Below are positions 13,825 to 52,765 of a stretch of DNA of 64,000 nt, piece by piece. Source of the DNA: a bacterium (GTDB lineage: Bacteria; NPL-UPA2; JAUVJM01); contig JAUWGW010000005.1 in assembly GCA_030606215.1 (NCBI GenBank), positions 1 through 64,000 on the forward strand, read 5' to 3'. The position numbers and the translations under genes are program-made. Numbering within the stretch: position 1 is the stretch's first letter; the number at the start of each line of letters is the position of its first letter. The notes beneath the pieces were generated by a model. The model had not been told where the DNA came from. It was given only the letters and a program-made list of their open reading frames with translations, and did no database searches.

Positions 13825-13896
13825 AAGAAGATTCATATTTCACAGACCCATTAAAATCTATTCAGTTTAATTGCAGAAATTATACCTGAGGAGACA

Positions 13897-14934
13897 ATGA
13901 CTCCAAGAGAACGCTGGCTTGCTGTGCTTAATCGTGGGAAACCTGACCGTATCCCGATGGACTACTGGGCTACCGAAGAGGTTACAGCAAAACTTATGAA
14001 ATATTTAGGTTGTGGGACTGAAAAAGCATTGTTTGAACATTTGCATATTGATAAGGTCATCACGGTAGGACCAAGATACATAGGACCTTCTCTTCCGGAG
14101 CATACAGATGTTTTTGGCTGTCGTCTTAAGGAAGTGAGCTATGAAAGCGGTGTTTACTCAGAGTGTGTCTATCATCCGTTAGCTGAATACAAGATGCTTG
14201 ATGAGATCAAACAGAATTACAAATGGCCTAATCCGGATTGGTATGATTACTCAGAGATTCCCGCTCAGGTTTCTGGTGAAGAAATGTATCCTATTCGCGG
14301 CGGTGGTTCAGAACCATTTTTGACCTATAAAAACTTGCGCGGTCAGGAACAGGCCTTTATGGACCTGATACTCAACCCTGAAATTGTGCATTTCTGTCTC
14401 GATAAGCTGTTTGACCTGTGCTATGAGAATACTCTTCGCATCTACGAGCAGATTCCGGGAAAGGTAATGATTACCTATGTAGCAGAAGATTTTGGCTCGC
14501 AGGAGGACTTGATGTACTCTCCTGCCCAGATTCGTGAATTCTTTATCCTGAGGATGAAGCGTATGATGGATCTGGCTCATCAGGCTGGTGCTTTTGTATT
14601 TTTTCACAGTGACGGAGCTGTCAGGAAAATCGTTCCAGATATGATTGAGGCTGGGATTGATGTTTTAAACCCCATTCAATGGCGGTGCAAAGGAATGGAG
14701 CGGGAAGCTCTCGAACGCGATTTTGGAGACAAGGTGATTTTTCACGGGGGTGTGGACAATCAGCACACATTGGCTTTTGGTTCGGTGGAAGAGGTTCGCC
14801 AGGAAGTAATTGACAATCTTCGTATCTTAGGGAAGGGTGGCGGTTATATCCTTGCCCCCTGCCATAATATTCAGTCGGTCAGTCCTCCGGAAAATATTGT
14901 AGCTATGTATGAGACGGGATATAAGAATGGATAG
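13897..14934 (+). CDS. Uroporphyrinogen decarboxylase family protein (methyltransferase-like)
   Basis: A 345-aa TIM-barrel protein of the UroD/methylcobamide:CoM methyltransferase superfamily. It begins MTPRERWLAVLNRGKPDRIP, the typical start of the non-heme branch of this family, and has FFHSDGAVRKIVPDMIEAGI near the C-terminal active site, then FHGGVDNQH and ILAPCHNIQSVSPPENIVAM. Such proteins often transfer methyl groups or act beside glycoside-utilisation genes; no substrate can be assigned. GAGGAGA precedes the ATG. A defective second copy lies at 15969-16147. Confidence 0.85.
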   Translation: MTPRERWLAVLNRGKPDRIPMDYWATEEVTAKLMKYLGCGTEKALFEHLHIDKVITVGPRYIGPSLPEHTDVFGCRLKEVSYESGVYSECVYHPLAEYKMLDEIKQNYKWPNPDWYDYSEIPAQVSGEEMYPIRGGGSEPFLTYKNLRGQEQAFMDLILNPEIVHFCLDKLFDLCYENTLRIYEQIPGKVMITYVAEDFGSQEDLMYSPAQIREFFILRMKRMMDLAHQAGAFVFFHSDGAVRKIVPDMIEAGIDVLNPIQWRCKGMEREALERDFGDKVIFHGGVDNQHTLAFGSVEEVRQEVIDNLRILGKGGGYILAPCHNIQSVSPPENIVAMYETGYKNG

Positions 14935-15940: not shown

Positions 15941-15969
15941 GGCTCCCAGATTTCTGGCCGCCTTTTTTT
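15941..15969 (+). terminator. Possible weak hairpin and T-tract
   Basis: CCAG/CTGG with flanking GGC/GCC can form a hairpin (15941-15962) with a 2x2 internal loop, followed by seven T residues at 15963-15969. It lies just before the UroD remnant. The stem is weak, so function as a terminator is uncertain. Confidence 0.3.
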
Positions 15970-16147
15970 CTATTCAGTTTAATTACAGAAATTATGTTTA
16001 AGGAGACAATGACTCCAGAGAACGCTGGCTTGCTGTGCTTAACCGTGAAAAGCCTGACCATGTTCTTGCCCCATGCCATAATATTCAGCCGGTCAGTCCT
16101 CCGGAAAATATTGTAGCTATGTATGAGACGGGATATAAGAATGGATA
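15969..16147 (+). pseudogene. Internally deleted second copy of the UroD-family gene
   Basis: About 95 bp of upstream region plus gene start (matching 13857-13954) is joined directly to the last ~78 bp (matching 14858-14934) of the gene at 13897-14934. The shared start includes GAGGAGACAATGACTCCA-like sequence (here AAGGAGACAATGACTCCA), and the end shares ATATTGTAGCTATGTATGAG. About 900 bp of the middle is missing. At the fusion the sequence equals the expected 5' to 3' join except for three transitions. Loss of one A after ACTCC also shifts the frame. Non-functional. Confidence 0.85.
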
Positions 16148-32216: not shown

Positions 32217-33790
32217 AAGCAGTTAGCCGCGATTACGGCGTAAAAATCTATGATACCACTCTTCGTGATGGTTCTCAAGGGGAAGGGATTTCTTTCTCAG
32301 CTAAGGAGAAAATAGCAATAACGCAGAAACTTGATGAGCTGGGAGTTCATTTTATTGAAGGGGGAAATCCGGGTTCCAACCCAAAGGATATTGAGTATTT
32401 TAAAGCTGTGCGCAAGCTCAAACTTAAGAATGCAAAGGTGTGCGCATTCGGAAGCACAAGAAGAAGTAATAAAACAGCTAAAACTGACCCCGGACTGAAA
32501 CTTCTTCTCTCTGGTGGTACAGATGTAGTGACTATTTTTGGGAAGAGCTGGGTGCTTCATGTGCGGGATGTGTTGAAAGTTACACTTAAAAAGAATCTTG
32601 ATATGATAGCCAGCACCGTAGAATATATAAAGTCTAAGGGGCGAGAAGTCATATACGATGCAGAACATTTCTTTGACGGGTTTAAGGATAATCCTGAGTA
32701 TGCAATGAAAACTATCAAAGCAGCTGAAGGGGCAGGAGCTAACTGGATAGTCCTCTGCGATACAAATGGTGGAAGCCTGCCTGCCTGGATTGTGGAAGTG
32801 GTTGAGAAGGTGCATCAGGAGATAAAAGTTCCACTCGGGATACATACGCACAATGATTCAGGGATGGCAGTTGCAAATTCAATTGTAGCCGTGATGAGCG
32901 GCGCAAAGCAAGTGCATGGGACAATTAATGGATATGGAGAGAGATGTGGGAACGCAGATCTATGCTGTATCATCCCGATTTTAAAATGGAAAATGAATAT
33001 TAATTGTATAACCGATAAACAGTCAAGAAGACTTGTGGAAGTTTCCCGGTATGTAAGTGAGCTCGCCAATGTAGTTCCGAGGGACGAGCAGCCCTTTGTG
33101 GGAAACAGCGCATTTGCGCACAAGGGAGGGATGCATGTTGATGCAGTTATGAAAAGTGCGAGAAGTTTTGAACATATAAAGCCGGAGCTTCTTGGAAATG
33201 AAAGAAGGATACTGGTTTCAGAACTTTCCGGGCGGGCAAATGTTCTTTTAAAAGCGGAAGAATACCGCCTTGGTCTCAGCAAGGATTCACGAGAAACAGG
33301 GGAAATTGTTAAAAAAGTCAAGGAACTTGAACATCAGGGTTACCAGTTTGAAGCTGCTGATGCTTCGCTTCGGCTCCTTATGAAGAAGGTGGTCGGTATT
33401 CACAGGAGATTTTTTGATTTGCAGGGATTCAGGGTTAGTGTTGAGAGAAGAGGAGATGAGATTGTTTCAACTGCGACAATAAAGCTAAAAGTTAAGGGCG
33501 TGGAAGAACATACAGCGGCAGAAGGTGACGGGCCTGTCAATGCGCTTGATAATGCTTTGAGGAAAGCTCTGGGCCGCTTTTATCCAGATATAAATGAGAT
33601 GCGTCTGACAGATTTTAAAGTGAGGGTGCTGGACGCTGAAGCAGGGACGGCGGCAAAAGTGAGAGTTCTGATAGAATCGCAGGACCACAGGGACACATGG
33701 CGGACGATAGGCGTCTCAGAAAATATAATTGAAGCGAGCTGGCAAGCACTTGTTGACAGCGTTGAATATAAGTTGATGAAGGATGGTTAA
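32213..33790 (+). CDS. cimA: (R)-citramalate synthase
   Basis: A 525-aa DRE-TIM metallolyase. It joins pyruvate and acetyl-CoA to citramalate, the threonine-independent route to isoleucine. [40 protein letters not shown] and [20 protein letters not shown] are characteristic; [18 protein letters not shown] is the typical CimA variant rather than LeuA. The C-terminal LeuA dimer domain (about 390-520) serves regulation. It overlaps valS by 8 nt. Confidence 0.94.
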
Positions 33791-36509
33791 TATTTCTCCA
33801 AGGTACAGTGCCGCTGAAGTAGAAGAGAAGCTATACAAGTTCTGGGAGGAAGAAGGATTTTTCCAAGCAAGGCCGCCTGAAAGAGGCAGGACACCTTTCT
33901 GTATTGTAATCCCTCCACCTAACATCACCGGTTCCCTTCATATGGGGCATGCCCTGAACAATACGATTCAGGATTGTTTGACACGCTGGAAGAGGATGCA
34001 GGGATTAAATGCTCTCTGGATACCCGGAGTAGACCATGCCGGGATTGCCACACAAAATGTTGTGGAAAAGGAATTGATGAAGGAGGGGAGAAGGCGCGAT
34101 GAGCTTGGAAGAGAGGAGTTTGTCAGAAGAGTCTGGCAATGGAAAGAAGAATATGGTGAAGATATAGTTGAACAGTTGCGTCTTCTTGGGTCATCCTGTG
34201 ATTGGGAACGATTGAGATTCACGATGGATGAGAGATATTCAGCCGCGGTGCTGGAGGAGTTTGTTCATCTCTATGGGGAGGGGTCTATCTACCGTGGGAG
34301 TCGTATCATCAACTGGTGTCCTGGCTGCAGGACAGCTCTTTCAGATATTGAAGTTGAGCATGAAGAAGTTGACGGGAAATTTTATTACATAAAATATCCT
34401 TTGAAAGAAGGGGAGTATATACCTGTTGCAACAACAAGACCTGAAACAATGCTCGGGGACACTGCTGTAGCTGTTCATCCGGATGATACGCGATACAGAA
34501 GCCTAATCGGGAAACCTGTGCTCCTTCCTCTGTCTGGCAGGGAAATACCTGTTATATCCGACGGGAGAGTTGACCCATCCTTCGGCACTGGAGCTGTAAA
34601 AGTTACACCTGCTCATGATCCGGAAGATTTTGAGATCGGGCTTACGCACAATTTACCCGAGGTGAGAGTGATTGGTGAAGACGGGAGGATGACAGAAAAT
34701 GCAGGCAAATTCTCAGGCCAGGACCGTTATAAATGTCGCGAGAATGTTCTGAGAGATTTAAAAAATGGCAGGTATCTCTTCAAAATTGAAAATCATAGAC
34801 ATTCAGTTGGGCACTGTTATCGTTGCGGCGCTGCAATTGAACCGCTCATTTCACTTCAGTGGTTTGTCAGGATGAAAGAGTTAAGTCAGCCTGCAATAAA
34901 GGTTGTTGAGGAAGGAAAAATCAAATTTCACCCTGAACGCTGGACAGGAGTGTATCTTGACTGGATGAGAAACATAAAGGACTGGTGTATTTCCAGGCAG
35001 ATCTGGTGGGGGCACAGGATTCCTGTCTGGTACTGTGAGGATTGTAAGTTTGAAAATGTGGAGAAAGCTGCTCCTGCGAAATGCAAGAAATGTGGTTCGC
35101 ATAAACTCAGGCAGGATGAAGATGTTCTGGATACATGGTTCAGTTCTGCCTTATGGCCGCTCTCAGCACTTGGCTGGCCTGAAGATACAGAGGACCTTAA
35201 ATACTTTTATCCAACCTCTGTCCTTGTTACCGGCTATGAGATTATTTGTTTCTGGGTTGCGCGGATGATTATGATGGGATTGAAATTCAAAGGGGATGTT
35301 CCGTTCGGGGATGTCTATATCCACGGAATTGTGCGCGATGCTAAAGGAAGAAAGATGAGCAAATCTCTTGGGAATGTCATAGACCCGAGGGAAATAATCA
35401 AATCCTACGGAACTGATGCGTTAAGAATGACACTATTGACTTCGCTTGGCGGACAGGATATCTATCTGGGTGAAGAAAAGCTTGAAGGGATGAGAAATTT
35501 TGCGAATAAACTGTGGAATGCCGGAAGATTCATCCTGATGAATATTCACTCAACTGCGTCATTGCGAGGAGCGATAGCGACGTGGCAATCTGACCATTTG
35601 CAGGGAGAATTGACACTTGATGACAGGTGGATACTTGCAGAACTTCAGAAACTAATACGAGAAGTTACCAATAGCCTGAATACATACAGGTTCAGTGAAG
35701 CAGGGCAGATACTTTATGAATTTAGCTGGCATAAGTTCTGTGATTGGTATCTTGAACTTGTTAAACCGAGACTGGCTGACCCTCAGGAGAAGGAAGTGGT
35801 TTCGCGTGTCCTTTTGTTTGTATGGGAAAGACTTCTGAGGCTCCTGCATCCATTTATGCCATTTATTACGGAAGAGCTGTGGCAATGTCTCCCTCCTGAA
35901 TCCATGATGTGGGAAACATCTCCTGATGTTGAATCCAAGCGTAGGGGCGAGCTTGCTCGCCCTAAGAATGGAAAGAGCATAATGGTCAGTTCCTGGCCTG
36001 AAGTTTCTGATGAGTTTGTAGACCAGGAAGCTGTAGCGCTGGCGGAGCGCAAGTATGCTGTAATCCGAACAGGGCGTCAGCTCAGGACTGAGGCGGGTGT
36101 CCCACCCGGGGATAAGAGGAATTTCATCATAGAGCCCGCAGATGAGGATGAGGAAAAGGTTTTTAAAGAACAGTTTTCCGGTATTGGCCTTTTACTCGGG
36201 GCAGGTGAGGTTTTGATTGAAAAAAACGCGCAAGTTCCTAAAACATCTCTTTCGGGGATAAGTGCTTTTGGCACACCCGTGCACATGGTTGCAAGTGAAA
36301 TAGATATAGAAGCTGAGAAGAACCGGCTCGCACAGGAACTGAAAAAGATTGAAGCTGTAATACAGCGCAGTGAAAACAAGTTGTCAAACCCTGCATTTCT
36401 TGAGAAAGCTCCAGGTAATATTGTTGAGAAAGAGAAACTAAAAAAGAAAGAACTTGAAGAAAGAAAAGAAAAACTCCTCACCCATCTCACCCAACTTAAG
36501 CATAACTGA
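33783..36509 (+). CDS. valS: Valyl-tRNA synthetase
   Basis: ValRS (908 aa), class Ia. HIGH motif in [20 protein letters not shown], editing domain with [19 protein letters not shown], tryptophan-rich [19 protein letters not shown] in [17 protein letters not shown], and a C-terminal coiled-coil arm. Two segments not expected in the family coincide with palindromic DNA repeats: about residues 590-605 (35557-35592) and about 720-727 (35942-35964). Both are in frame, so the enzyme is probably functional. Confidence 0.97.
35557..35592. repeat. Short dispersed repeat inside valS
   Basis: The sequence gtcattgcgaggagcgatag followed by cgacgtggcaatct is a form of the dispersed GTCATTGCGAGGAGC...GTGGCAATCT repeat found in intergenic DNA of many bacteria. 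Here it lies in the valS frame and encodes [14 protein letters not shown], an extra peptide between [11 protein letters not shown] and [10 protein letters not shown]. Confidence 0.75.
35942..35964. repeat. GC-rich palindromic repeat inside valS
   Basis: GGGCGAGC-TT-GCTCGCCC is a perfect 8-bp-arm hairpin within TAGGGGCGAGC...GCTCGCCCTA. It encodes RRGELARP in a segment longer than usual for ValRS, before the conserved IMVSSWPE. Confidence 0.7.
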
Positions 36510-47535: not shown

Positions 47536-47666
47536 TAGCCCGGATTATTCATACTACGATGAAATGGCCAACATACTGTCATTCTGAGCGGAGCGAAGAA
47601 TCTCTATAGATTCTTCGTCACTAACGCTCCTCAGAATGACACATGCTGTGTGAATAATGCAGGATA
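47536..47666. mobile_element. MITE-like palindromic element, copy 1
   Basis: Left end TAGCCCGGATTATTCATAC (47536 on) pairs imperfectly with the right end TGTGTGAATAATGCAGGATA (47647-47666). Inside is a long hairpin (47577-47642) built on GTCATTCTGAG...AGAATCT and its complement ...CTCAGAATGAC. It has no coding capacity. The same architecture recurs at 52635. TA at both tips suggests TA target duplication. Confidence 0.8.
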
Positions 47667-51182: not shown

Positions 51183-52637
51183 ATGAAACTTATTTTTGAA
51201 AAAAGCGTTGCTGGGAGAAGAGGGGTAAGGTTACCCAGATGCGATGTTCCTATTGAGCGGGACAAGTTGAAGGGACTTAAACGCAAAGAACTTCCTGATT
51301 TGCCGGAGGTTTCTGAACTGGACACAGTCCGGCATTTTACAGAACTGTCCAGACACAATTTTGGAGTAGACACCGGCTTCTATCCTTTAGGCTCTTGCAC
51401 CATGAAATACAATCCGAAGATAGGGGAAGAGGCAGTTAGATATCAAGGTTTTAGTCGTCTGCACCCGCTCCTGCCCCAGCTTCGCCAGGGCGGGATACTT
51501 ACGCAGGGTGCCTTACAGGTAATCTATGAGACAGAACGGTTTCTATCAGAGATTACCGGTATGGCTGAATTTACCATGCAGCCTTTAGCCGGTGCTCATG
51601 GAGAACTGACCGGGATAATGCTTATTGCCGCCTATCACAAGTCAAGAGGCATCAAGAAAACAAAAGTCATTATCCCTGATTCGGCGCATGGAACTAATCC
51701 GGCAAGTGCCGCTATTGCCGGGTATGAGGTTGTATCAGTGCCTTCTGACAAGAACGGCGTCATGGATTTCAGCGAATTTCGAAAGGTCATTGATGAGAAA
51801 GTAGCTGCGGTGATGCTTACCTGTCCTAATACCTTAGGGTTGTTTAACCCTGATATAAAGAAGATTGCGGACAGGACACACCAGGCAGGTGGATTGATGT
51901 ATTATGATGGAGCAAATCTAAATGCTATTTTAGGTAAATGCCGGCCGGGGGATGTCGGGTTTGATGTTGTGCACTTGAATCTACACAAGACCTTTGGCAC
52001 GCCTCATGGGGGAGGCGGGCCAGGGGCAGGACCGGTAGGAGTGAAAGAGCATTTAAGAGAATTTCTTCCTATCTCGCTGGTAGTGAAAAGGCCGGATGGC
52101 ACATATGCCCTTGAATATAACCGTCCTAAATCCATCGGATATGTAGCCCCATTCTACGGCAATTTTGGGGTTATACTCAAGTGCTATGTCTATATCCTGC
52201 TCCTGGGCCGGGAAGGTTTAATCAGAGCTGCTGAGAATGCTGTGCTTAATGCCAATTACATGATGGAAAAACTAAAATCTTATTACCATCTTCCCTATGA
52301 CCGCAGATGTATGCATGAATTTGTCTTATCAGCTAATAAACAAAAGAAGCACGGGGTAAAGGCACTGGATATTGCCAAGCGCCTGCTGGATTTTAGTTTT
52401 CATCCGCCGACCATATATTTCCCTCTCATTGTTGAAGAGGCCATGATGATTGAACCTGCGGAGACCGAATCCGGAGAAACGCTGGATAAATTTATTGAGG
52501 TTATGATTCAGATTGCTAAAGAGGCTGAGCAGGAACCGCAGACTATTAAAGATGCCCCGCATAATTTAGATATATGCAGGTTGGATGAAGTAAAAGCAGC
52601 CAGAGAACCTAATCTAAAGTATGTTCGTGTTGCATAG
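51183..52637 (+). CDS. gcvPB: Glycine dehydrogenase (decarboxylating) subunit 2
   Basis: The C-terminal half of split P protein (484 aa) with the PLP Lys in [59 protein letters not shown] and [12 protein letters not shown] are conserved. The stop TAG (52635-52637) is made by the first three bases of a MITE end, so the last residue or two may differ from the ancestral C-terminus. Confidence 0.97.
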
Positions 52638-52765
52638 CCTGCATTGTTCACACTACGTTTGTCATTCTGAGGAGCATAAGCGATGAAGAATCTCATCAGA
52701 TTCTTCGCTACGCTCAGAATGACAGAGTGTGGGGTATTTAATCGTAGTATGAATAATCCGGGCTA
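52635..52765. mobile_element. MITE-like palindromic element, copy 2
   Basis: Ends TAGCCTGCATTGTTCACACT (52635 on) and, inverted, TGAATAATCCGGGCTA (52750-52765) form ~23-bp imperfect terminal inverted repeats. The internal hairpin uses GTCATTCTGAGGAGC... and ...GCTCAGAATGAC. It lies in the opposite orientation to copy 1 at 47536. The left tip coincides with the gcvPB stop codon. Confidence 0.82.

Follow-up and report, generated by a model that had tools for sequence, protein, structure and literature searches.

Two short palindromic repeats are translated in frame within valS, the gene encoding valyl-tRNA synthetase (ValRS), in the 64,000-nt stretch of DNA analyzed here (the window). Both are very probably REP-type non-autonomous mobile palindromes, repeat 1 of the CGTC/TGTC type and repeat 2 of the GTAG type, which were independently inserted into two variable and probably disordered linkers of the enzyme. 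Dispersed repeats with a tagged hairpin anatomy, an open reading frame, repeat peptides located in loops of low model confidence and clean in-frame insertions elsewhere in the phylum were observed. The phenomenon as such is known; the present case, from a phylum with sparse sampling, is genuine and well supported.

The encoded ValRS carries a HIGH-type motif (HMGH, residues 53–56) and a KMSKS motif (residues 524–528), the Pfam domains PF00133, PF08264, and PF10458, and matches to the NCBIfam models NF004349 and TIGR00422, both well above cut-off. The closest Foldseek match of its AlphaFold2 model (mean pLDDT 86.3) is the ValRS of Thermus thermophilus (1gax_A, TMq 0.86). The valS frame is unbroken across 908 codons, both repeats included (Table 1). 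Exact reading of the letters bore out the original prediction, which had placed two in-frame repeats in valS at 35557–35964.

Table 1. Positions of valS, its linkers and repeats, and of related dimers in the window.
Feature	Position	Strand	Basis and details
valS, valyl-tRNA synthetase	33783..36509	+	ORF list; intact, 908 aa
Site 1 linker, helix 564-588 to helix 612-633, start of anticodon-binding domain	35546..35614	+	AlphaFold2 model, homologue lengths
Repeat 1, CGTC-tagged REP-like unit, singleton, CGTCATTGCGAGGAGCGATAGCGACGTGGCAATCT	35557..35591	+	Exact reading; in-frame 12-residue peptide, residues 592-603
Site 2 linker, after helix 693-701, before helix 748-770	35886..36021	+	AlphaFold2 model, homologue lengths
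Repeat 2, GTAG-tagged REP, singleton, GTAGGGGCGAGCTTGCTCGCCC	35941..35962	+	Read as RRGELARP, residues 720-727
Head-to-head dimer, repeat 1 type, TGTC-tagged	47578..47640	.	DNA fold -21.3 kcal/mol, z -8.0
Second head-to-head dimer, repeat 1 type	52661..52723	.	Another copy in the window

Repeat 2 forms the hairpin GGGCGAG-CTTG-CTCGCCC, with a 7-bp stem, a 4-nt loop and the GTAG left unpaired in the DNA fold. Its fold energy of −8.1 kcal/mol (z −2.9) was reached by none of 200 shuffled sequences, and between copies the stems differ mostly as complementary pairs (7 places in three genomes, controls zero). GTAG- and CGTC-tagged REPs were defined in >80 species (Di Nocera et al. 2013, PMC3733652). 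An unpaired GTAG, a stem within the range of 5–13 bp, a loop within 2–20 nt, dispersal, and the occurrence of dimers, the valS copy itself being a singleton, place repeat 2 among the former at the level of the superfamily (REP/BIME/REPIN), an assignment that is based on these criteria and not on one of the 24 numbered families. Further points of likeness are the G+C-rich stem, the complementary stem variants, the intragenic copies and the head-to-head dimers of this type, the last of which were found in the sister RsmH gene. The differences are a very low copy number (two in the host, four in the sister genome) and the search for a Y1_Tnp transposase/RAYT (PF01797), of which none was found in the 92.9% complete host genome. 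Since REPtrons can be missing and the association with RAYTs is frequent and not universal (PMC3733652), repeat 2 is still admissible as a GTAG REP.

For repeat 1, GTCATTGCGAGGAGCGATAGCGACGTGGCAATCT occupies the positions 35558–35591, and the preceding C completes the CGTC tag. The valS unit folds as a 5-bp outer stem followed by isolated pairs and taken alone folds no better than shuffled sequence (z −0.3). Across the units, stem positions 7–8 (following GTCATT) covary with the 3′ side, with CT/AG in 26, GC/GC in 7 and GT/GC in 5 of the 40 host units, and CT/AG in 87 and GC/GC in 17 of 108 sister units, which were collected from individual loci. GTCATT...AATC is found in every unit as it is imposed by the search pattern, but the covariation at positions 7–8 is unimposed. 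The base before GTC is a T in 33 and a C in five of the 40 host units, a T in 98 of the 108 sister units and a C in the valS copy. The tails after AATC are mostly TCA, TCT, or TCC, and many units are arranged as head-to-head dimers.

Repeat 1 shares with the CGTC REPs the tag (TGTC in most copies, a variant named in PMC3733652), the stem starting with AT, the head-to-head dimers, the intragenic copies and the lack of a known transposase, the mode of movement of the CGTC REPs being described as an open question (PMC3733652). It differs from them in having a 5-bp outer stem, mismatches and a variable inner part in place of an 8–9 bp stem with a 4–5 nt loop, and a 3′ tail that is mostly C-TCN in place of CCA. 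Because it lacks the simple 8–9 bp stem and the CCA tail, repeat 1 is assigned to the CGTC type outside the families CGTC-1 to CGTC-4.

The resemblance to Rickettsia palindromic elements (RPE-1 and others; Ogata, Claverie) that had been proposed for the valS repeats holds, in that dispersed palindromes are translated in frame in conserved genes and tolerated there, in this case in variable linkers of low confidence. Compared by description and not by letters, the ValRS units of 34 and 22 nt differ from the RPEs, which have a length of 105–146 bp (PMC2229807); in addition, most copies lie outside genes, and the phylum of their host is a small bacterial one represented by few genomes. The sequences had been regarded as unrelated to those of RPEs. 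This is not supported for repeat 1, as its CGTC/TGTC tag and AT-start stem are, again by description, those of the superfamily in which RPE-4 and RPE-6 of Rickettsia conorii as well as dRS3 of Neisseria were placed (PMC3733652). Likewise, tolerance of the repeat peptides by the host is less unusual than supposed, as GTAG- and CGTC-type REPs are known within ORFs of several species, including tRNA synthetase genes of three species, and neutrality of REP inserts in loops was proposed as possible (PMC3733652). For a guanylate kinase that carries an RPE, translation and activity with an altered substrate affinity are reported (reviewed in PMC2229807).

Copy numbers were determined by pattern searches of genomes. 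With 1.52 Mb in 34 contigs, the host genome contains 40 matches to the repeat 1 pattern (GTCATTNNGAGN{8,22}AATC) and two to the repeat 2 pattern (GTAGGGGCNNGN{2,20}CNNGCCC), compared with zero matches for each reversed control, which is well beyond chance. Both repeats are thus dispersed and not unique, as the original prediction had it, repeat 2 being rare. Under a rigid 34-nt pattern repeat 1 appears as unique, and its copies emerge once a variable inner part is allowed; longer-spaced variants added few units. In the sister genome of the same family (G001), 81 repeat 1 units and four repeat 2 units were identified (reversed controls zero), and a third genome of the phylum holds one repeat 2 unit (control zero).

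At least one match to the repeat 1 pattern was found in 182 of the 290 genomes examined, which belong to many families, and more than 400 in two, whereby zero to three matches per genome correspond to about the control level and have little meaning. The genomes G070 and G156 contain 411 and 553 CGTC-type pattern matches, respectively, compared with 0–1 in the reversed controls. Searches of plasmid and phage collections gave scattered repeat matches only, none of them in Rickettsia and none with annotated features, and a literature text search by the repeat letters returned no match to a described repeat.

The two head-to-head dimers of the window (Table 1) lie in inverted 131-nt copies (47536–47666 and 52635–52765), which are 84% alike and comprise the REP dimer and conserved flanks starting with AGCCCGGATTATTCATACTACGAT. 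This arrangement suggests a larger composite repeat. The window also contains duplicates of 43–88 nt with 90–95% identity (13857–13948 and 15969–16059, 14846–14933 and 16060–16147), apparently the product of a local segment duplication.

In the AlphaFold2 model of ValRS, pLDDT values below 50 occur in exactly three segments (591–600, 602–605, and 712–729), all of which lie within the two loops that contain the repeat peptides. As low values are expected for residues common to few relatives, this backs the position in loops and is no proof of disorder. Both linkers vary in length among ~107 homologues. Site 1 comprises 30 residues in the host, 25 in the sister and 22 in the median, with nine homologues being at least as long as the host; site 2 comprises 40, 34 and 17 residues, respectively, with two such homologues. 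The expectation that ValRS relatives are shorter at both places is thereby confirmed, and the same-family enzyme, which is 71% identical, is shorter by 5 aa at site 1 and by 6 aa at site 2. Since the site 2 linker is already expanded in the sister, repeat 2 accounts for only a part of the extra length and thus entered a linker that had previously lengthened in the host's family. In the nucleotide alignment, the net gain over the closest relative amounts to 15 nt at site 1 and 18 nt at site 2, for elements of 34 and 22 nt. With a closest relative of 71% identity and net gains below the element lengths, the ValRS breakpoints are unplaceable, and one has to invoke drift or a local replacement.

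Neither repeat site is conserved in the valS genes of relatives, which, together with the repeat 1 unit of valS being no stabler than its shuffles, argues against an action of the hairpins at the mRNA level by translation pausing, as RNase III sites or in termination. Most REPs lie outside genes and could function as RNA elements (PMC3733652), and the repeat 2 hairpin is stable in the DNA fold; even so, such an action in valS is considered highly improbable.

In-frame copies were also identified in other genes. The element in the host FolC (residues 410–425) lies within a 26-aa insertion, which is absent from six orthologues of the phylum. A 10-aa insertion in MurE of the genome G004 is absent from the orthologue of the congeneric G002, the two being ~91% identical over the aligned residues. 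In the sister genome, RsmH contains a 48-nt GTAG dimer (GTAG...GCCC-TAAT-GGGC...CTTAC, fold z −4.6) and is 12 aa longer than the host orthologue. In these three genes the frame is kept and the element is absent from close orthologues, as in the RPE-bearing genes, and ValRS, where the borders are uncertain, has gained 5 and 6 aa. Orthologues were compared for FolC, RsmH, and MurE, and the evidence is positional for the in-frame element in an Eco57I-type methylase of the host, for the elements inside the M16 peptidase and ComEC genes of G004 and for the two elements inside a DNA methylase gene of G003.

These insertions bear on the question of whether valS received insertions at all. The repeats might be chance resemblances within linkers that evolve fast, or they might stem from the misassembly of a fragmented genome, and a length gain over the sister below the element lengths as well as the distribution of the genome over 34 contigs would fit this explanation. 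However, the 34-nt and the 22-nt repeat families were both matched with reversed-pattern controls at zero, like elements insert cleanly in FolC and MurE, and the 908-codon frame is intact, so that chance or artefact is regarded as extremely unlikely.

In addition, a single ORF at the sister locus L124 (905–3046, minus strand) encodes an MZB-domain helicase together with an RNase H-like exonuclease domain. The two are separated by an in-frame REP dimer, which may bridge a gene fusion. At the host loci L048 and L087, REP units provide the C-terminal codons and the stop region of an RnfG-like protein and an FGGY kinase. Small ORFs around repeats (L089, L092) showed no family match and were set aside as probably spurious.

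The interiors of host genes hold three of ~38 sites, compared with ~35 expected at random from the coding density of 91% in the window. The notion that the repeats proliferate into essential coding genes is not supported by this number. The strong intragenic depletion indicates either that selection purges most intragenic insertions or that insertion is targeted elsewhere.

A further explanation is co-option, in which the repeat-encoded peptides alter ValRS function, e.g., tRNA binding or regulation, and are kept by selection. Site 1 is located where the anticodon-binding domain is entered, site 2 in the linker that follows the helices of this domain, and it is one essential gene that carries two different REPs. 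In contrast, the model confidence of the segments concerned is very low, the sister species lacks them, and the linkers that contain them vary in length throughout the ValRS. Moreover, the genes of the phylum that carry elements have unrelated functions, and the elements are read in both orientations and in no fewer than three frames. Co-option is therefore rated as very unlikely.

Independent insertion of mobile palindromes into tolerant linkers would proceed as follows. Copies would arrive by transposition in trans through an enzyme, most intragenic arrivals would be harmful and then lost, and insertions keeping the frame and falling in a loop could persist as nearly neutral passengers. Persistence in valS would need an open frame, a loop that tolerates the insert and a net length change in multiples of three, each of which holds. 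It is made possible by the repeat 1 unit having a stop in only two of its six frames, an internal TAG in one and a terminal TGA in the other, with the remaining four fully open. On the basis of the sequences and the structure model, we infer that the ValRS insertions may be neutral.

The single Y1_Tnp of the sister genome (L183, 28–690, minus strand) lies between the arms of a 21-nt imperfect inverted repeat, in which it resembles the TIR-flanked transposases described in PMC3733652. It was rejected as the REP mobiliser, since this inverted repeat is unrelated to the REPs. It is conceivable, though rather doubtful, that the CGTC/TGTC-type palindromes spread via a dedicated, unrecognised trans-acting enzyme common to many bacterial phyla. 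If this were true, the enzyme would be traceable by comparison, using insertions like that in MurE, which are missing in a congeneric genome, and genomes that hold hundreds of copies although their close relatives lack them.

Taken together, the known range of intragenic GTAG- and CGTC-type REPs now includes a bacterial phylum that is small and little sampled, and CGTC-type palindromes are present in the genomes of many bacterial families. The in-frame insertions in ValRS, FolC, MurE, RsmH, and others, some of them with empty-site comparisons, form a fresh set that is useful for studying the tolerance of palindrome-encoded peptides.
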